A stretch of 49,740 nt of DNA from a virus. A model generated the notes under the pieces. It saw only the letters and a list, made by a program, of their open reading frames with translations, had not been told where the DNA came from and did not search any database. Every line of letters begins with the position of its first letter. Within the stretch, counting starts at the first letter, position 1. A program made the position numbers and the translations under genes. The stretch covers positions 1 through 49,740 of the IMG/VR virus record IMGVR_UViG_3300010354_000135; one strand, given 5' to 3'. Positions 40,401-49,740 of this stretch are shown here, piece by piece.

Positions 40401-42302
40401 TTTTAGACTGCCATCTGCATTCATTTGGCCAGTAAAGTCTTTGAATTTCTTGGTAGCAGCCTCAAATGTGTCTAAGAGAAGCTGACCCCCACTCCCTGGG
40501 CCAACAGAGGCATCAAACATATTTTTAAGAGCGCCGCCGATATTCTTAAAAATCGTCCCTAGTTGAGCAGCAGTTTTTCCAGCTGACCCAAACATTGTCG
40601 TAAGTTGGCCTGTTGCTTCCTTCACTTGAAGACTGATCCGGGCAGACTCAGCTAGTCTTTCTATCCAAGAACCAAATTTATCAATTAGAGGACTAGCAGC
40701 AGAAAGAAGAACGAGAAAACTTGTATACAGCTCCTCAACTACAACTCCAATTTGACGAAGAAGCCTGTCTCCAGTTTTCCAGACATCCCACAGTCTCTTC
40801 AGGTTTGATGCTTGAGTAATAGTGTTAGCGAGCCCTATTGCTATATCACCGAGTACGCCGCCAGTCGCCTTGAGAAGAGGATTAAGAACAGGAAATAGTC
40901 GATCAACAAGTTTTTGTAGAGCAATTTCAAGTTTTGGAAAAAGTTCTTGTCCTGCAGAGTCTCTAAGTTTTTTAAACTCTGGCTGGATTTTTAGAAGATA
41001 TTTAACAAAATCCTGTGCTTCTTTGGACAATTTTGACATGGCCTGAGCAAATGCATCAGAACCTCCACCGCCCCCTGCAAATGTCTTTTTTCTTGCTTCC
41101 ATTAAATTTTTCAAAGCATCGTTAAGATCGTCTACTGCTTCCCTCTGTCTTTCGGCATTTTCTCTTTCTACTTCGGCTATATTTCTTGCAGCTTTTGCTG
41201 CATCATTTCTAGCTCTTGTTACTTCTTTCTGTGCCTCTACAACTCCTCTAAGAGCATCTTCTTCAGATCTTCTTGCTTGTCTTAGTGCATCTTGTGCAGC
41301 AATTACTTTCTTAGAACCATCAACTCCTGCTTTTGTGGCAGCAGCCTCTTCTTTCTTTAAATCAGCATTCTTGTCAATAGCACGACGCAAGTTGAGATCT
41401 GCTTCAGCAAATGATAGTTCTGCTTCTCTTCGAGCACGGGAGTTAGGCGGAAGATCTTGAACTCTCTGCAAGGCATCGCGAGATTTTTCAAATTCTAGAC
41501 GAGCCTTTTTCTCCCCCAAGGAGGCTGCCTCTGACTCAAATCTGAGCTGTTGAAGGTCTTCTATAGCTTCTTTGCGAGCTTCACTGAGTTCTTGAACTGC
41601 TTTACGAGTAGCTATCTGGGCATCAGCATAGTCCCGATCAGCTCTACTGGCATTGAATACAGCGTCTGCAACATTTTCGTTTGCCTGGGCTAGTTGTTCT
41701 TGAGCCTCAATTCTTCTTTGAACATTTTCCCTAATAATCTGAGTAAGTCTTTTTCGAGCTTGAGCAACAGCGTCTGCTGCTGCCTTAATCTGCTTTGCAT
41801 TGTCAAGCGCTTGACGACCTGCGCTTCCTCCTCCACCACCTTTAGCCTTTAGACCTGCAGAGAATGCTGCCCCAACTCCACTAAACGCAAGTTTTAACGT
41901 TATAGCTGCTTGAGCAATAGAAGTAAAAATTGAAGGCAAGACAATCAATGAAGGAGCAGCCGACAGAGCTGCTGAAGATAGAGCAAATAGTCCAGATACG
42001 AGAGAGCTAATTGCCCCCACAACTCCTACGATGGCTGGACCCACAATATTGCTAATGGCAATCATATTTTGCAGAGCTAATCTTGCTCTAGCTGCTTCTG
42101 CCATTAACTTGTCGGAGAAAAAGCTGGCAGAGCTTCCACCACCACCTCTTCCACGAGAGAATCCTCTATTGAACTGCTCTCGTACCTGTCTTCCAGAGTT
42201 TTCAGCAACAGAGCCTGCCGAATTAAATGACCTTTGTATGTCATCTCTGACGGAGTCGGTGACAGCATGAACTTTTATATAAGCATCACCTACGATAGCC
42301 AT
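37422..42302 (-). CDS. Tape measure protein, 1626 aa
   Basis: The longest minus-strand gene, between the assembly chaperones and the Dit-like gene, as in all siphoviruses. It sets tail length. An N-terminal conserved part (AIVGDAYIKVHAVTDSVRDDIQRSF) is followed by a hydrophobic segment at about 80-145 (MIAISNIVGPAIVGVVGAIS), a long charged coiled coil at about 170-420, a second hydrophobic region at about 735-785 (LGYVTPILAIASALSLLTRLF), and more helical repeats. No peptidase or lysozyme motif was found. At about 0.15 nm per residue a tail of up to roughly 240 nm is suggested. ATG at 42302 has a very strong ribosome site (GGAGGTGA). Confidence 0.95.
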   Translation of the reverse strand: MAIVGDAYIKVHAVTDSVRDDIQRSFNSAGSVAENSGRQVREQFNRGFSRGRGGGGSSASFFSDKLMAEAARARLALQNMIAISNIVGPAIVGVVGAISSLVSGLFALSSAALSAAPSLIVLPSIFTSIAQAAITLKLAFSGVGAAFSAGLKAKGGGGGSAGRQALDNAKQIKAAADAVAQARKRLTQIIRENVQRRIEAQEQLAQANENVADAVFNASRADRDYADAQIATRKAVQELSEARKEAIEDLQQLRFESEAASLGEKKARLEFEKSRDALQRVQDLPPNSRARREAELSFAEADLNLRRAIDKNADLKKEEAAATKAGVDGSKKVIAAQDALRQARRSEEDALRGVVEAQKEVTRARNDAAKAARNIAEVERENAERQREAVDDLNDALKNLMEARKKTFAGGGGGSDAFAQAMSKLSKEAQDFVKYLLKIQPEFKKLRDSAGQELFPKLEIALQKLVDRLFPVLNPLLKATGGVLGDIAIGLANTITQASNLKRLWDVWKTGDRLLRQIGVVVEELYTSFLVLLSAASPLIDKFGSWIERLAESARISLQVKEATGQLTTMFGSAGKTAAQLGTIFKNIGGALKNMFDASVGPGSGGQLLLDTFEAATKKFKDFTGQMNADGSLKQYFLDASKNAIEVLKLLTSIAKAFLKLADDETTGLFVKNIREAGPAIQKIIDTLNSAGPSFAQLFTQVANILAAFSDIGALETFYKVLLTVGQLFESIFSNEIVAKILGYVTPILAIASALSLLTRLFAFFGKAILGSLAFMGKAILAMLGLELNVRKVQLAFLMGTGAVNKFKIALTALSVSNPWMLALTAITTALGAFWMSNQNAQAAVDDLTSAMLDNRNAMNEAAAAFYTKKLSEDITELYEWQTITELTGLTIGDLAVALAEGGEALDAVQAKIDAATIAQDRNTQSGIDNSNLLNNLSSAIENQGETRDEASKKIALQLQAEKDLAVAQEEAKKSVEELTAEFDKNIKSLTSHEKWLYNNELAAAEMEAELKALEDALDSIGKTMSGQRAQIKLRAAYRDLTAAVKENGDAILGTTAKADANKEIIIGLVEDQIARVKGLGLSPAAAAVEFGKGMEEVRKKLIKAKFKPEDVDAYLKELKATPEQAKTILSGVQTAGEKAKADFRKTGALAGQGFIDGLRARAKEAYDAGVYLGRISNSGLQAELKIESPSKVMRENGENTVLGFVLGITENSDKPAKAFETVIDKMIKGGGKKLQDFGAEIKTIYDNYIGTLGTLGQLSKDFSQGLRDALNPPEVESSPLVTGDFLKKAESALANTSAKLVDFRKKFIGPEGALSDKQIANASSRLTELSEVLKTDLISALDGARANFSQWKQDFANFKSSISSAIMGGVSFDSAYQQSLQKAEDGSTKSLTTIINEQLEKTRQFRAKLKALISANYSRDVIDQVIAQGVDGGTELAQAILDGGTELLSLDTSIQNELNALTEELAAEGYNAFFKSGTDAAEGEVKGIEAIFAREQGEDSTLNKAISALARKLARTVKLKIKLSQDKFDVVIDVKRIIREVVVPPTVVAAEGGIVNRPTYTLVGEAGPEAIIPLSKTPGNGPLPNNFGLGGDVYVTVNPSPGMDEVELAKLVSRELAFQMRKGAI

Positions 42303-42322
42303 GAACTGTCACCTCCTCTCGT

Positions 42323-44062: not shown

Positions 44063-45202
44063 CTACGCCGTATAAATTGGCAAGACTCGCTCGCCAAGCT
44101 GAAGGATAACATTGCTTGACACAAGGTTGATTACTTCGTCTATGGATGGATTGCCGAGAGCCGGTCTAGTGGCAAAAAGATCCATTACTCCAGGGTCTCT
44201 TGATCCTATTATTGAGACTATGTCAGAGTAGTTAGCCGATACTCGTATTGTCTGGTCAACTGTGTCTAGTACGGTCGAATTGGCTACAGTCTGAGTCTTC
44301 TCATTTGCCCAGTCTGATACGACAAGACTCAGCACCCACGATGTGTCGCTAAGAAGGAATTCTCCTCCGATTTCATCTAGGTAAAGGAGAACTGCTCCAC
44401 CATCTGTCGTCACATACAAATCGAACGAAGACAGTGGAATTGCTGGACTCTTGGCAGATATACGCCTAGCCCTGTTTGTATCAGGAGAGAAGACTCTTGC
44501 TCTCGCTCGTGCCTTGTCTGGATTTGCTGTCTTTAGGAACATGTCAACGGCATAGATGCCAGTACGCATATTCTCTAGAAAGTCTTGATTGTCAAGAATG
44601 GTGTAGCTGACTCCCTGCCTGCTAATGCTCGTTACCCTTTGGGGGAGCGCACAGGTGTCGTCGCCTTCATACATTTTAACTAGCTCGGTGGCAAGCAGCT
44701 TTGCTGCAGCTCTCCCAGCTGATGGGGGTGGAGTTCCGTATGTATATGTCACTTCGACATTGAACGGATTCCAGTTAGCATTCGGAGCGCCGTAGATTGT
44801 TGAGTGATCAGCAAGGTAGTACTTCTTTGGGTCTACTACATTACCGTCTCTGTCTCGAACGGTATGAATCTTTATTACTTTTCTACCGCGAAGTCGTACT
44901 CTTGAGCGAGATGAAGTTCCGTCACCAAGATAATCATTTCCGTAGACTCTTAAATCTCGTCCTACGGGAAGATTTTGGACATTCCCTTCAATAAGGGTTG
45001 GAAGGTACTTATATCCAGATCCGGCTGTTCTGAAATACGGATCAAACTGGGAGACATATCGCTCAGTTACAGTGGTAATCCCACTGTATTTTCTTCCAGA
45101 CATTGCCCAAAGAAGGTAAGAAGCAGTCTTGCATGCGTCGTATGCATAGTCAGACTCTGCGTAGTCACCAAGACTCTCTACAGTTGTCCACAGATTGCTC
45201 AC
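44063..45202 (-). CDS. Head-to-tail adaptor protein
   Basis: A 379-residue protein. The N-terminal 190 residues have the helical adaptor pattern (DYAYDACKTASYLLWAMSGRKYSG; VTYTYGTPPPSAGRAAAKLLATELVKMYEGDDTCALPQRVTSISRQGVSYT) that I associate with actinophage head-to-tail adaptors. The C-terminal 130 residues are an extra beta-rich domain (FDLYVTTDGGAVLLYLDEIGG...WVLSLVVSDW), and the C-terminus is hydrophobic. GTG at 45202 has GAGGT five bases upstream. It follows the major tail protein and a hairpin, which is a less usual order than head, adaptor, tail. Confidence 0.75.
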   Translation of the reverse strand: MSNLWTTVESLGDYAESDYAYDACKTASYLLWAMSGRKYSGITTVTERYVSQFDPYFRTAGSGYKYLPTLIEGNVQNLPVGRDLRVYGNDYLGDGTSSRSRVRLRGRKVIKIHTVRDRDGNVVDPKKYYLADHSTIYGAPNANWNPFNVEVTYTYGTPPPSAGRAAAKLLATELVKMYEGDDTCALPQRVTSISRQGVSYTILDNQDFLENMRTGIYAVDMFLKTANPDKARARARVFSPDTNRARRISAKSPAIPLSSFDLYVTTDGGAVLLYLDEIGGEFLLSDTSWVLSLVVSDWANEKTQTVANSTVLDTVDQTIRVSANYSDIVSIIGSRDPGVMDLFATRPALGNPSIDEVINLVSSNVILQLGERVLPIYTA

Positions 45203-45223
45203 GTCTTACCTCACTAATCAAGA

Positions 45224-45271
45224 GGGGCGAGTAGCGTCCAAGTCAATGAAGACTAGAACGCTCCTCGCCCC
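45224..45271 (-). terminator. Hairpin after major tail protein gene
   Basis: An 8-bp GC stem (GGGGCGAG with CTCGCCCC), one mismatch, then a further 5 bp (AGCGT with ACGCT), with a 20-base loop. It lies 9 bases after the major tail stop, before the adaptor gene, where partial termination would set a high tail-tube to neck ratio. No T-run follows. Confidence 0.55.
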
Positions 45272-45280
45272 ACTCGGTGG

Positions 45281-46324
45281 TTATGCGGTTGGATCGACCG
45301 CCGAATTGATGATGAAGTCAATCGGCTGATCGGCGTTGTAATCCTCGTTGCCAGGAACGTTGAACGCTGTGTCGGATGCTCCAGCAATTGATGTCACAGC
45401 GGCGTAGCCCTTCTGACGAACAGCTGTTCCTACTGGGCTGACAGCAGTAGATGTAACATCAGTAGCGTTCTTTGAGTAGCGGAACTGTGTTGTTGACGGA
45501 ACCGCTGTGATTGTGTACGTACCATTGAAGGTCGAATCAACACCAGCGACCACCACGGTCTGGCCGACGGAGAATCCGTGAGCAGATGTTGTGGTTAGAG
45601 TTGCAATGTTAGATGTCAGGGACTTGTTGTTCACGCTGGCAGCAAGATCCTTGTGCCATGTGTAGAAGCCCTTGAGACCTGTTGGTGCCCACGAAGAGCG
45701 AGCGTATGAGTACGAGCGCTCGGTGGCAACTGGCCACTCCCAACGTCCGTCTAGTCCAGTGTCGAACGTAACGTTTCCAAGGCCGTAGCCCTCGAACGTT
45801 GTCGCAAGCATTCCGTTCTCAATCACGCGGTCACCGGACTGACGTAGACGGCAGTAGGGGAAGACCCAGTGGAAGTAGGGAAGTGTTGATGCGCGGCGTC
45901 CATCCTTGACGGCGAAGGACCAAACCTCAAGAGCAACGCCATTTCCTGTGGGATCATCACCAACTGAAGGTGCTGACCAACCGATGCTCTTATTGTCTGG
46001 TGATGCAAACGTACCGAAGTTCTTGCGAAGAAGCAGACCTCCTGAAATGAGCGCTGTTAGCTCTGAGTCTGGCTCACAGATGGCAAGCTCCATCGTGATC
46101 CGCTTCATGGTGTCGGGAGCCTTATAAGACACGCACACTGTGCCGTCCGCAGACTTCTCAACGATTTCGTCACCCTCCTCATATTCGGGGGTGAAAGATG
46201 CACGCATAAACGCCGAAGTGGTGTAGCTGTCCCCTGCGGAGTTCAGCAGGTTTCCAGCGGCGTCCAGTCTTGTGACTCGGATCGCCACACCTTGGACGCT
46301 CGCCGCGTAGTCCTGTGTGGGCAT
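45281..46324 (-). CDS. Major tail protein with a C-terminal module A
   Basis: A 347-residue tail tube protein. It is early in the structural block and has a good ribosome site (AGGAGATAGAA before ATG 46324). Residues 1-230 (VAIRVTRLDAAGNLL; RASFTPEYEEGDEIVEKSADGTVCVSYKAPDTMKRITMELAICEPD; LEVWSFAVKDGRRA) fit the actinophage major tail protein family. Near the C-terminus there is one module A (ATLTTTSAHGFSVGQTVVVAGVDSTFNGTYTITAVPSTTQFRYSK), followed by about 45 residues. In tube proteins of other phages, C-terminal Ig-like domains decorate the tail surface, so the module would be present in every tube ring. Confidence 0.85.
   Translation of the reverse strand: MPTQDYAASVQGVAIRVTRLDAAGNLLNSAGDSYTTSAFMRASFTPEYEEGDEIVEKSADGTVCVSYKAPDTMKRITMELAICEPDSELTALISGGLLLRKNFGTFASPDNKSIGWSAPSVGDDPTGNGVALEVWSFAVKDGRRASTLPYFHWVFPYCRLRQSGDRVIENGMLATTFEGYGLGNVTFDTGLDGRWEWPVATERSYSYARSSWAPTGLKGFYTWHKDLAASVNNKSLTSNIATLTTTSAHGFSVGQTVVVAGVDSTFNGTYTITAVPSTTQFRYSKNATDVTSTAVSPVGTAVRQKGYAAVTSIAGASDTAFNVPGNEDYNADQPIDFIINSAVDPTA
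45424..45633 (-). repeat. Single module A in the major tail protein
   Basis: One unit of the HGF..G..V.VAGV..TFNGTY.I..VPSTT.F.Y type, the same as in fibres, Dit-like and hub genes. It uses more G and C at third positions than the fibre copies, like its host gene. Confidence 0.8.
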
Positions 46325-46355
46325 TTCTATCTCCTATAACTTTAATGTCGCTAAT

Positions 46356-47231
46356 TTATGAAGTTGGTAGAGTCACTCTGACTGTATAGTGAATGCTTGG
46401 ATCAAATGTGACTGCAGCTGGCCTGTAAGCCTTGATCCGCATATCGTTAATAGTAGCATCAACTCCTTGAGCCAAGTTATCGTTGATAACTTCTATCTTT
46501 CCAAGATGAACGTCTACGCGACCTGTTGCGTACATCCACTTGTTTGTGGCACTGGCTGCTGCTCCGGTGGCTCCGATAGGTCCTTTTCCAGAGAATCCAG
46601 ATCCAATAACAACTCTTGTGCCAAGACGTGTTATTAGGTGTGGTCCAGTTTCGTTTGTTTCCTTGTGGAGAATGCTTGATCCTAGGTACGACGCAACATC
46701 TCTTGTCATGTGAATGAGTGCGTTCTCTCCCGTTGGTGAGTTGGAGATAGACTGCTCAAGATACATAAGGGCAATATCAGGAGGATAAGCTCCGCTTGCC
46801 GCTTCGGTTGCAGCGCTTGCCTTGCTTAGGAATAGATTGGCATTTCCGTCTCCAAGAGCAGCTCTTCCGTCCCAGAATTCAACTTCGACAGCTTTTTGTG
46901 TAGCCGCCTCAAGCTGCTTCTTGACTCTCTTGAACCGATCTTCTCCTGGAAGGTCGAATGTAGATCTGAAGTCTTCAACCTCAACAAAGAAAGGTATGTA
47001 TGTGTTATACCTGTCGCTTTTTGTGCCGTCGTACAGGGTTCCATCAGTTACTGTCTCGTCATTGGTTGTGAGTAGACGAACGCTAGGAAGAGTATCAAAT
47101 TCGTGATCGAATCCTCTAATCCAACGCTCGTCATACTCACTACCAGTGTGAGTCATAACCTCAGCTACGCTCAGAAGCCCGCAAGAGGCTGGCGATAATT
47201 CAGGTGGAGGAAAGTATCCTCTGAATGGCAT
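46356..47231 (-). CDS. Head-region structural protein, 291 aa (second capsid-like candidate)
   Basis: It follows the major capsid gene in the same direction. Sequence: LSVAEVMTHTGSEYDERWIRGFDHEFDTLPSVRLL; a long helix FKRVKKQLEAATQKAVEVEFWDGRAALG; PPDIALMYLEQSI; and ALIHMTRDVASYLGSS..., THLITRLGTRVVIGSGF; then NKWMYATGRVDVHLGKIEVI. The last motif, with a Trp-x-Tyr-x-Thr-Gly strand, is found in actinophage head proteins, some of which I recall as pentamer-type or decoration proteins. The role here is not settled. ATG at 47231 has AGGAG about eight bases upstream, inside one arm of a 17-bp inverted repeat. Confidence 0.65.
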   Translation of the reverse strand: MPFRGYFPPPELSPASCGLLSVAEVMTHTGSEYDERWIRGFDHEFDTLPSVRLLTTNDETVTDGTLYDGTKSDRYNTYIPFFVEVEDFRSTFDLPGEDRFKRVKKQLEAATQKAVEVEFWDGRAALGDGNANLFLSKASAATEAASGAYPPDIALMYLEQSISNSPTGENALIHMTRDVASYLGSSILHKETNETGPHLITRLGTRVVIGSGFSGKGPIGATGAAASATNKWMYATGRVDVHLGKIEVINDNLAQGVDATINDMRIKAYRPAAVTFDPSIHYTVRVTLPTS

Positions 47232-47257
47232 GTCTTATCTCCTCTTGCGGGCTTCTG
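47172..47257 (-). promoter_or_regulatory. 17-bp perfect inverted repeat enclosing start and RBS
   Basis: Arms 47241-47257 (5' arm in the mRNA, CAGAAGCCCGCAAGAGG) and 47172-47188 (3' arm) are exact reverse complements, 17 of 17, with a 52-base loop. The 5' arm contains the AGAGG of the Shine-Dalgarno for the gene starting at 47231; the ATG lies in the loop and the 3' arm covers codons for about residues 16-20. The mRNA could therefore hide its own ribosome site. Confidence 0.7.
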
Positions 47258-47280
47258 GCGTGTTAGCTGATTAGTTCGGC

Positions 47281-49194
47281 TTAGTACTCAATGGCCGCAG
47301 CTGTTGCTCCACCTGTGGTGTCGCGTAGAGCGGCAGCCACACCATTAATGCTGATGGTGGAGGTGATTGCAAGCGACTCAATTCCGACCTTGGCAACACC
47401 CTCGAAGGTCTCAACGAACATCTTGTAGTCGTTGGTTCCGACGAGGCTGGAGTCGCGGATGATTCCGAGATCCAGTGTTCCGCCGTCAAGGAACAGGAAT
47501 GTTCCCTCAGCGAACATGTACCAAGTGAAGGAGTCAGAGAACTCGTTGAGAGCTCCTGTGCTCTGAGTGCCGTAGACGTTCTGGTCTAGTGAGTAGGACA
47601 TCACAACACCGCGAGAAGACAGGTATCCGTCAATCTCAGATCCAGCGTTCATCGTGCCATCACCAGGCATTGCCAGAGTCAGATCGGCAACCATTGCATC
47701 CTTGACCCATGAAGGGGCAATGACGCGAAGGGAAGCGTCTGGCTCAAGGCGATGACGGCTGCGGTACGCAACTGCAGCGCGAGCGATCTGGACTAGGAAG
47801 TCGCGACCGAAGCCGATGAGGCTTGATGTGGTCACGGCTGTCGAACCAGCGGCGATCTTGCTGAGCAGGTACTGCTCGGCCTCGCGAGCGTGCTGAATCA
47901 GGCCAAGCTCGTTGTGACGAGCAATTAGCTCTGGGTAGGCGCGTGTTGCGAGGTTTCCGAACTGCATCTGGAGAGTCACAGCATCTGTAGCAACTGTGGT
48001 CTCGGTAGCAGCAGCCACTGTCAGGCTTGCCTTTGTTGCCGGGTCAGGAGATCCAGCTGCATCATTTGCAGCTGTCCAGACTCCGACAGCATTGTCGTAG
48101 CTTGACAGGACGGGCGGCAGAATGTAGCGAATGCCGCCACGATCTGCCTGGAAACGCGGAAGTGCGTCACGAACGGGACGGTTTGTGGTACCGAACCCGA
48201 AGATGTCGTAACGAACCTCGAACGGAGCCTGGTGGCCACCAGAAGCGACGAGGGCCTCAGGGCCAACGACGTTCTGAACCTTTGTCCAGTTCTCCTCTGG
48301 ATCTGTCCCAAGGGTACGCTCCTCGGGGAAGGTGGTTGTGAGAGAAGCAACGATGTGCTGCTCTCCATCTCCACCATTGACGCGACGAAGCGCATGCAAG
48401 CGCTTTGCCATGGCCTCAGCCACGGCATTCATGTCGCTTAGTGGGCTGCCAGCCGTGTACCCAGGAATGTCTGCACCAGCCGTGATCGCCACGGGTGCGG
48501 CAGAGACCTGTGTAACTGGGCGACGGTCAGCCGGAACCTCGATATTGAGGTTATCTGCATTCTCAGCAGCGGCGGTCACGGGTGCCTCCAGGGTTGGGTT
48601 TTCTGTATCGGTGATGGTTTCCTGCACAGAAGCCTCTGCATTTGCATTGGCCTCAATTGTTGTTTCTGTCGAAAGCTCCACGGTCTTATCCGCATCGGCT
48701 GACGCTTCGGAAACGATGGACATCTCCATCTTCTCCTCTTCCTTGTCCTCTTCGGACTCGGGTTCTGGCATGGGCTCCTCCTCAACCTCAACCTCAACGA
48801 CTTCCTCAACGGGAGCCTCTTCGGCTGGGGCCTCGTCTGCTGGAGCAGGAGGCATCTCCTCTTCCATATCCATCGCCATCTCGGCGTCTTCTTCTGGAAT
48901 CGGCATACCTTCTTCTTCCATACCTTCCTCTGTGTCGCCGTCTTGACCGTGAACACGACTTGCAGCCTCAGCAGCCTTCTGAGCAAGCTCGGCTGCCAAA
49001 ACCTCGCGGCGCTTGACCTCAGAACGAACTGTGTCAAGCATGTCGGCAAGAGACGTCATAGCGTCAACTGTCTGCGGAGTGGGATCTTGAGATTCGACCG
49101 TTTCGAACTCAGTGATGATCTGACTCTGGAGCTCTGAGACCTGATCGTCGTCAAGCTCTGAGAGCTGATCCATCTGCTCTTTGATTCGGTCCAC
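47281..49194 (-). CDS. Major capsid protein (HK97-like) with long acidic N-terminal scaffold-like arm
   Basis: A 637-residue protein. Residues about 240-637 are the capsid core (AMAKRLHALRRVNG; FEVRYDIFGFGTTNRPVRDALPRFQADRGGIRYILPP; LGLIQHAREAEQYLLSKI; APSWVKDAMVADLTLAMPG; VVMSYSLDQNVYGTQ; TFLFLDGGTLDLGIIRD), recognisable as an actinophage major capsid. Residues 1-220 are different: a helical start (1-85) then an extremely acidic stretch (about 88-160: EEEGMPIPEEDAEMAMDMEEEMP; EEVVEVEVEEEP) and Ala/Thr-rich linker. This is like a fused scaffold or delta domain to be cut off by a protease. GTG at 49194 follows AGGAGGGA. It has its own long leader upstream. Confidence 0.88.
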   Translation of the reverse strand: MDRIKEQMDQLSELDDDQVSELQSQIITEFETVESQDPTPQTVDAMTSLADMLDTVRSEVKRREVLAAELAQKAAEAASRVHGQDGDTEEGMEEEGMPIPEEDAEMAMDMEEEMPPAPADEAPAEEAPVEEVVEVEVEEEPMPEPESEEDKEEEKMEMSIVSEASADADKTVELSTETTIEANANAEASVQETITDTENPTLEAPVTAAAENADNLNIEVPADRRPVTQVSAAPVAITAGADIPGYTAGSPLSDMNAVAEAMAKRLHALRRVNGGDGEQHIVASLTTTFPEERTLGTDPEENWTKVQNVVGPEALVASGGHQAPFEVRYDIFGFGTTNRPVRDALPRFQADRGGIRYILPPVLSSYDNAVGVWTAANDAAGSPDPATKASLTVAAATETTVATDAVTLQMQFGNLATRAYPELIARHNELGLIQHAREAEQYLLSKIAAGSTAVTTSSLIGFGRDFLVQIARAAVAYRSRHRLEPDASLRVIAPSWVKDAMVADLTLAMPGDGTMNAGSEIDGYLSSRGVVMSYSLDQNVYGTQSTGALNEFSDSFTWYMFAEGTFLFLDGGTLDLGIIRDSSLVGTNDYKMFVETFEGVAKVGIESLAITSTISINGVAAALRDTTGGATAAAIEY

Positions 49195-49214
49195 TGTCCC
49201 TCCTACAGGGCAGT
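49193..49214 (-). promoter_or_regulatory. Hairpin over the capsid gene ribosome site
   Basis: On the mRNA, ACTGCCCT and AGGGACAGT pair around GTAGG, an 8-bp stem with a bulged base. The hairpin holds the AGGAGGGA ribosome site and the first two bases of the GTG start. It is short, so it may be breathing, not blocking. Confidence 0.4.
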
Positions 49215-49309
49215 CGTGGGTCTGGGACCTTCCCAGTCCCTAGCTGATCAGTCAAAGGCCGAGGGACTCCCAACCGCGCAAGGCGTGGAGGCACTCCACC
49301 TAATACTGA

Positions 49310-49315
49310 ATTGTA
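49310..49315 (-). promoter_or_regulatory. -10-like box upstream of capsid gene
   Basis: TACAAT on the minus strand, 116 bases before the capsid GTG and identical to the box before the WhiB gene. It would leave a leader of about 108 bases with several small stems (49285-49300; 49228-49242). No -35 box of usual form was found, so this is tentative. Confidence 0.3.
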
Positions 49316-49356
49316 CATTGGTTTTCACACGGTTAGTTGTACGATTTTTTTATCTT

Positions 49357-49740
49357 TTAGGTAAGTAATCTCAGCAGCTTCGCCATCTGCGATGAGATAT
49401 CGCTTTGGCTGTAGAAATCCCCACCAGACATGAAGGACTTAATATCCTTAGTGGCAATTGCGGCGTCTTCCGTACCGATCTTGGCCTCAACCTTGGTAAT
49501 CATGTCCTTGATGAGATCCCGGAGGGCTGGAGGCACGTCAGAGAACCGAATCTTCTCTGCATCTTCTCCGAATGCGAACGGAAGATTTGCCACAACTCGG
49601 CCAAGCTCTCGGCTACTCTCACGGACATTTCGTATTGCATCAGGATTTAGGGCACCAGTGTCAAGTCTATCTATGATGCCAATAAGATCACTAGCAGCCT
49701 TTGTAGCTCTTCCATAGTCCCCGGCGTAGTCAAGGTTTTC
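49357..49740 (-). CDS. Head-region hypothetical protein, start outside window
   Basis: The frame is open from the window edge to the TAA at 49357, so at least 127 residues are seen and the true start lies further right. The visible part has a helical look: YAGDYGRATKAASDLIGIIDRLD, PDAIRNVRESSRELGRVV, then LPFAFGEDAEKIRFSDVPPALRDLIKDMITKVEAKIG and SGGDFYSQSDISSQMAKLLRLL. It precedes the capsid gene, where portal, protease or minor head genes usually sit, but I recognise no motif. An internal GTG at 49593 could start a shorter form, but the upstream frame is open and uses similar codons. Confidence 0.7.
   Translation of the reverse strand, partial: ENLDYAGDYGRATKAASDLIGIIDRLDTGALNPDAIRNVRESSRELGRVVANLPFAFGEDAEKIRFSDVPPALRDLIKDMITKVEAKIGTEDAAIATKDIKSFMSGGDFYSQSDISSQMAKLLRLLT

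Follow-up and report, generated by a model that had tools for sequence, protein, structure and literature searches.

The sequence under study, referred to here as the window, is a 49,740-nt stretch of viral DNA corresponding to positions 1 to 49,740 of IMG/VR virus record IMGVR_UViG_3300010354_000135. Its minus strand carries a major capsid gene followed by a gene for a 291-aa protein (Table 1). The product of the upstream gene belongs to phrog_777, the major head protein family. The 291-aa protein matches phrog_779 (E 3e-23), a family that carries no function; Pfam and PDB sequence searches with this protein gave no match, and its probable nature came from a fold search. Its AlphaFold2 model is of moderate quality (pLDDT 66, pTM 0.66), and its best fold matches in the PDB are without exception HK97-type capsid proteins or encapsulins (Foldseek E to 4e-8; in structure comparison, Z to 12.1 over 212 residues at 4.0 A). 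Isolated phages have a homologue of the gene between those for the 'major capsid hexamer protein' and the 'major tail protein'. In Gordonia phages Thing3 and RiverRaider, phrog_779 members are annotated 'major capsid pentamer protein' and match the window family by profile; annotated pentamer homologues are 25-31% identical. The modelled fold and the annotation of homologues suggest that the 291-aa protein is probably a second, pentamer-forming, low-copy capsid protein, which would be placed at the five-fold vertices. In Saccharomonospora phage PIS 136, the homologue of the pentamer-like protein (JX006077.1 PIS_018, locus L145) carries the deposited name 'Epstein-Barr nuclear antigen 1', which is evidently a misannotation.

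Table 1. Features of the capsid and tape-measure regions, with positions in the window
Feature	Position	Strand	Basis or remark
Major capsid (hexamer) protein gene, phrog_777	47281..49194	-	Immediately upstream of the pentamer-like gene; relatives annotated 'major capsid hexamer protein'
5' arm, outward extension (UCAGCU + CGC, paired past bulge)	47258..47270	-	Minimum-energy fold
5' arm, perfect part	47241..47257	-	Leader of pentamer-like gene; overlaps first Shine-Dalgarno bases
Shine-Dalgarno AGGAG of pentamer-like gene	47239..47243	-	Sequence; 7 nt ahead of start codon
291-aa HK97-fold protein, phrog_779, probable capsid pentamer protein	46356..47231	-	Family match, fold, annotated homologues
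3' arm, perfect part	47172..47188	-	Codons 15-20 of pentamer-like gene, translated; synonymous constraint nearby
3' arm, outward extension AGCGUAGCUGA	47161..47171	-	Minimum-energy fold
Second element, Shine-Dalgarno arm GGAGGUGACAG of tape-measure gene	42306..42316	-	
Tape-measure protein gene, 1626 aa	37422..42302	-	
Second element, complementary arm CUGUCACCGACUCC in tape-measure coding region	42252..42265	-	

Results

A long stem at the start of the pentamer-like gene

A preliminary description of the window had noted a perfect 17-bp inverted repeat at 47172-47257, and this is borne out: the arms are complementary at 17 of 17 bases, with 52 bases in between. It is the longest perfect inverted repeat in the window with a gap of up to 100 bases. 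In 100 dinucleotide shuffles of the window, the longest repeat averages 11.0 and tops out at 15, in agreement with the earlier estimate of about 0.0003 for a chance occurrence. In the mRNA, the leader separating the major capsid gene from the 291-aa gene holds the 5' arm, and the start codon (47231-47229) sits in the 52-base loop with the 3' arm in coding sequence, as described. The statement that the Shine-Dalgarno (SD) sequence lies in the 5' arm holds in part, since only the AGG of AGGAG falls within the perfect arm and the remainder is outside; the predicted pairing probability of the SD is 0.65. The helix goes on outward beyond a bulge. A 151-nt RNA spanning the region folds at -63.3 kcal/mol (z -6.3), and none of 200 shuffles is equally stable. 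The loop is 52 nt in the window, and about 70-84 nt outside the conserved core.

We rejected two other readings of the site. An intrinsic terminator is ruled out by the length of the loop and by the lack of a U-run, and there is no terminator-like match at the stem. A later start at Met26, which would put the stem upstream of the gene, is contradicted by the N-terminal peptide, which is conserved across the family, whereas Met26 is not. At gathering score, Rfam gave no match in this region of the window or in nine relatives, with one spurious window match below threshold. No sigma-70-like site was found within 45000-49740, although phage promoters may differ.

The leader/codon stem is conserved across a clade

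Two IMG/VR scans and tblastn of phage records yielded well over 100 loci, of which 75 are distinct and have enough leader for analysis; a search of bacterial genomes for prophage homologues found none. Set 1 (clade 1, n = 58) comprises the window, freshwater contigs, Microbacterium phages A3Wally, Pumpernickel, Big4, Zooman and Cece, and Arthrobacter phages Talia1610 and Atuin. Set 2 (clade 2, n = 17) includes phage DSL-LC01. All 58 set 1 loci have an anti-leader sequence within the coding region, and in all 58 the leader pairs with codons ~15-24 more strongly than in any of 200 leader shuffles (mean z -7.0); for set 2 the corresponding figure is 0 of 17 (mean z +0.4). The helix is GCAACGCTCAG/CTGAGCGTTGC in freshwater contigs, CCGAGCCACACTGAA/TTCAGTGTGGCTCGG in Microbacterium phages and GTAGCTGGACTC/GAGTCCAGCTAC in Arthrobacter phages. 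A leader taken from another locus weakens the pairing by 16 kcal/mol on average, native leader/CDS pairs averaging -48 kcal/mol and swapped pairs -32 kcal/mol, and the native combination is better than the mean of the swaps in 58 of 58. The pentamer-like gene ranks top for leader/CDS pairing in the window, Cece and Talia1610.

Sequestration of the ribosome-binding site (RBS), as claimed in the preliminary description, stands in so far as the conserved core encloses the RBS. Direct pairing of the SD is not the conserved feature: pairing of the SD to the CDS above 0.5 is predicted in 44 of the 58 loci, and in the remaining 14 the SD is predicted to be mostly unpaired with the CDS. Some members may, therefore, limit initiation only indirectly.

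Compensatory change maintains the stem on the mRNA strand

We counted pairs in a sequence-only MAFFT alignment. Pairing is seen in 85% of alignment cells, compared with 33-40% after a shift of the partner column by 1-3, and both sides have changed in 115 cells, compared with 36.7 in shuffles (0/500). Twelve of the 17 stem pairs vary on both sides; alignment position 35/142, for example, is seen as A-U, G-C, C-G and U-A. Since alignment cells also count inheritance, changes were mapped on a tree of the protein past codon 35, which excludes the arm; the window row, out of register by one in the alignment, was omitted from this count. The tree has 39 two-sided pair-to-pair changes, compared with 0-3 in ten slid controls. 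Thus, the arms vary with covariation; variation without it had been named beforehand as evidence against a functional stem. Exceptions to Watson-Crick pairing are far more often G-U (55-58) than A-C (4-6), and hence we assign the structure to the mRNA strand. We conclude from these comparisons of sequences that it is near certain that the mRNA strand carries this stem and that compensatory change preserves it throughout the clade.

Codons 16-28 are among the most synonymously constrained in the gene, and Ser21 is AGC in 45 of 49 sequences. A further peak of synonymous constraint lies near the 3' end of the gene at codons 251-265 and equals the one at the stem in strength.

Other clades have a separate hairpin

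The 25 loci of other clades lack the leader/codon stem; in 23 of them a strong hairpin stands on its own between the hexamer and pentamer-like genes: 16 of 17 in set 2, and seven of eight tested Gordonia, Streptomyces, Microbacterium, Saccharomonospora and Dulem phages. The hairpin is missing from L044, where the contig ends, and from Nicole72, which has a 34-nt leader; SM23 and FuzzBuster, which have a long spacer or an extra gene, were left out of the scoring. No set 1 locus has a self-contained intercistronic hairpin (0/58). A strong structure directly after the hexamer gene is therefore common in the family, and in set 1 this structure has absorbed the RBS and codons. In L020-L050, L068, L137-L139 and L143-L146 the intercistronic hairpins reach about -50 kcal/mol and have no U-run.

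A shorter stem at the tape-measure gene

The runner-up for leader/CDS pairing among the 34 genes of the window is the tape-measure gene (z -3.8), and this gene likewise takes second place in Cece. The pairing joins its SD, GGAGGUGACAG, to CUGUCACC in codons 13-15, and relatives keep the register of the stem as GAUGGCGC/GCGCCAUC and GAGAGCGC/GCGCUCUC variants. This stem has z below -2 in 17 of 37 relatives and is absent from the others; it shows 9 double-change cells compared with 2.5, weaker support than for the pentamer stem. The tape-measure protein, too, is needed in few copies, such that two low-copy structural genes on the minus strand carry the device. Loci with the SD-pairing stem are L149, L152, L154-L156, L159-L161, L163-L165, L170 and L186-L188. 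An additional small hairpin, GCCC(CUUU)GGGC, lies about 25-40 nt ahead of the tape-measure start, upstream of the RBS, in the subclade formed by L152-L161, L164, L170 and L188.

The RBS is predicted to be open on short transcripts

When transcript fragments of increasing length are folded, a prediction based on equilibrium folds rather than kinetics, the SD stays mostly open up to ~40-50 nt of CDS, after which accessibility drops to 0.00-0.42 (from 0.69 to 0.35 in the window, and from 0.63 to 0.01 in L007). The core stem begins 11-42 nt after the hexamer stop codon. A terminating ribosome would hence not regularly melt it, and opening by ribosomes finishing the capsid gene, one of three routes suggested in the preliminary description, is unlikely as a general rule. 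Nothing points to the other two, a protein switch or temperature; a simple thermometer would need a much less stable stem.

Discussion

Pairing has been kept at this site in these actinobacterial viruses while the letters changed, from which we infer that the stem probably limits the second capsid protein relative to the main one. We consider it fairly probable that the conserved stem throttles translation of the pentamer-like gene, keeping it far below that of the upstream hexamer gene on the shared message. The translational switch proposed in the preliminary description is upheld in part, as regards an evolved mRNA structure at a translation start. Setting a ratio to the capsid protein is a sensible function given that the product looks like a pentamer-forming capsid protein; regulation as such is what the conserved structure suggests.

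A very stable structure over an RBS should make initiation at equilibrium a very rare event, although the protein has to be made. We therefore propose that ribosomes load before the 3' arm emerges. The leader would pair with codons ~15-24, holding the RBS in the stem or the loop, and on the nascent transcript the RBS would be free until the 3' arm, 40-80 nt beyond the start codon, is made. Ribosomes that load early would translate and keep the stem open, and a gap between ribosomes would let it shut for good. In this way a message would yield a limited burst of pentamer protein while hexamer translation goes on. The separate hairpin between the two genes in other clades, and a short SD-pairing form at the tape-measure gene, may be counterparts. 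A bolder generalization, possible but doubtful, is that large actinobacterial phages fix the hexamer:pentamer ratio, and the dose of tape-measure protein, by counting transcripts: the RBS would be open until the codon arm is transcribed, giving a fixed small burst per message, and clades would rely either on an intercistronic hairpin or on a leader/codon stem that encloses the RBS, the two being mutually exclusive.

The main rival, which we regard as unlikely, is an element that decides the fate of the mRNA, with any effect on the pentamer-like gene being secondary: the stem would shield the 3' end of the hexamer message, or RNase III cleavage would part the hexamer mRNA from the downstream mRNA. 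The core helix has sufficient length for RNase III, and the strong hairpin without a U-run that directly follows the hexamer gene in 23 of 25 relatives outside clade 1 does not touch the RBS, which suggests that a role shared across the family might be transcript stability or processing. However, a separate hairpin would serve this purpose without using codons, whereas clade 1 consistently has an arm in the coding region, where cleavage would ruin the pentamer message; moreover, the tape-measure element pairs the SD itself.

We think it quite improbable that a phage or host protein binds the stem and locks or opens it, for instance in self-regulation by the pentamer or hexamer protein. Arm sequences are well conserved within each clade, as such a site would be, but they are wholly different among clades while pairing is retained; the 3' arm encodes a peptide motif that is conserved also in phages without the stem, and this accounts for the conservation within clades. 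An aid to translation, in which the stem holds the RBS in an open loop and averts worse folds, would suit the 14 loci with a mostly unpaired SD, but is very improbable given that pairing mostly extends into the SD, perfectly so in the window, and that predicted SD accessibility declines once the 3' arm appears. A perfect 17-bp inverted repeat is also a DNA palindrome, and could in principle be a protein-binding site or cruciform, or a product of chance. Either is scarcely credible, because the excess of G-U over A-C exceptions rules out a DNA-level palindrome, and the shuffles, the covariation and the compensatory tree events rule out a chance repeat.

How separate hexamer and pentamer proteins from one operon are balanced is rarely understood, and the stem is a concrete cis-acting candidate. 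Compensatory mutation has preserved it in metagenomic phages and in isolated phages of Microbacterium and Arthrobacter alike, making it testable at the bench. One stretch of codons does two jobs, as a conserved peptide motif and as an RNA arm, in a leader/codon stem for which there is no Rfam model. A literature keyword search returned no description of such a stem and precedents only for RBS sequestration and co-transcriptional control of the SD, and a search directed at the gnd precedent gave nothing, although absence from such a search proves little.

In phage T4, the RBSs of genes e, soc, 49 and I-TevI lie within an inhibitory helix, which lowers synthesis from gene e about 100-fold (PMC3014915). 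There, an mRNA helix holds the SD and/or start codon of a phage gene, as may be the case at the pentamer-like gene. The purpose in T4 is timing, late promoters yielding transcripts that lack the 5' part (PMC3014915), whereas the element described here lies between two structural genes with no internal promoter-like site found. The T4 structures are local hairpins, unlike the long-range stem that encloses the RBS here. The MS2 maturation protein is a virion protein of low copy number, and its start is accessible only as long as a longer-range fold has yet to form, as we propose for the pentamer-like gene; PMC6733600 mentions the MS2 gene as one opened only on nascent RNA. However, MS2 is an RNA phage in which the pairing is with upstream leader sequence, and here a downstream codon arm is used in a DNA phage. 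In the E. coli gnd gene, an internal complementary sequence in the coding region pairs with the leader and RBS and lowers initiation, an arrangement like that proposed for the pentamer-like gene. Carter-Muenchau and Wolf 1989, as cited in PMC6733600, moved a coding-sequence anti-SD from codon 66 to codon 13. gnd is a cellular metabolic gene under growth-rate control, in contrast to a phage capsid gene with clade-wide covariation. The H. pylori aapA3 and hok toxin mRNAs have SD-sequestering structures, and co-transcriptional folding decides whether the RBS comes into use at all (PMC6733600), as in our proposal; these systems serve toxin silencing with an antisense RNA and are not stoichiometry devices. 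The closest arrangement in gene order and protein families is that of the Gordonia phage hexamer/pentamer pairs (phrog_777/phrog_779), which also have a strong structure between the genes, but there it is an independent intercistronic hairpin, and here the leader pairs with codons. RBS-sequestering structures are already known from T4 e/soc/49, the MS2 maturation gene and gnd, and the leader/codon stem is a variant of them.
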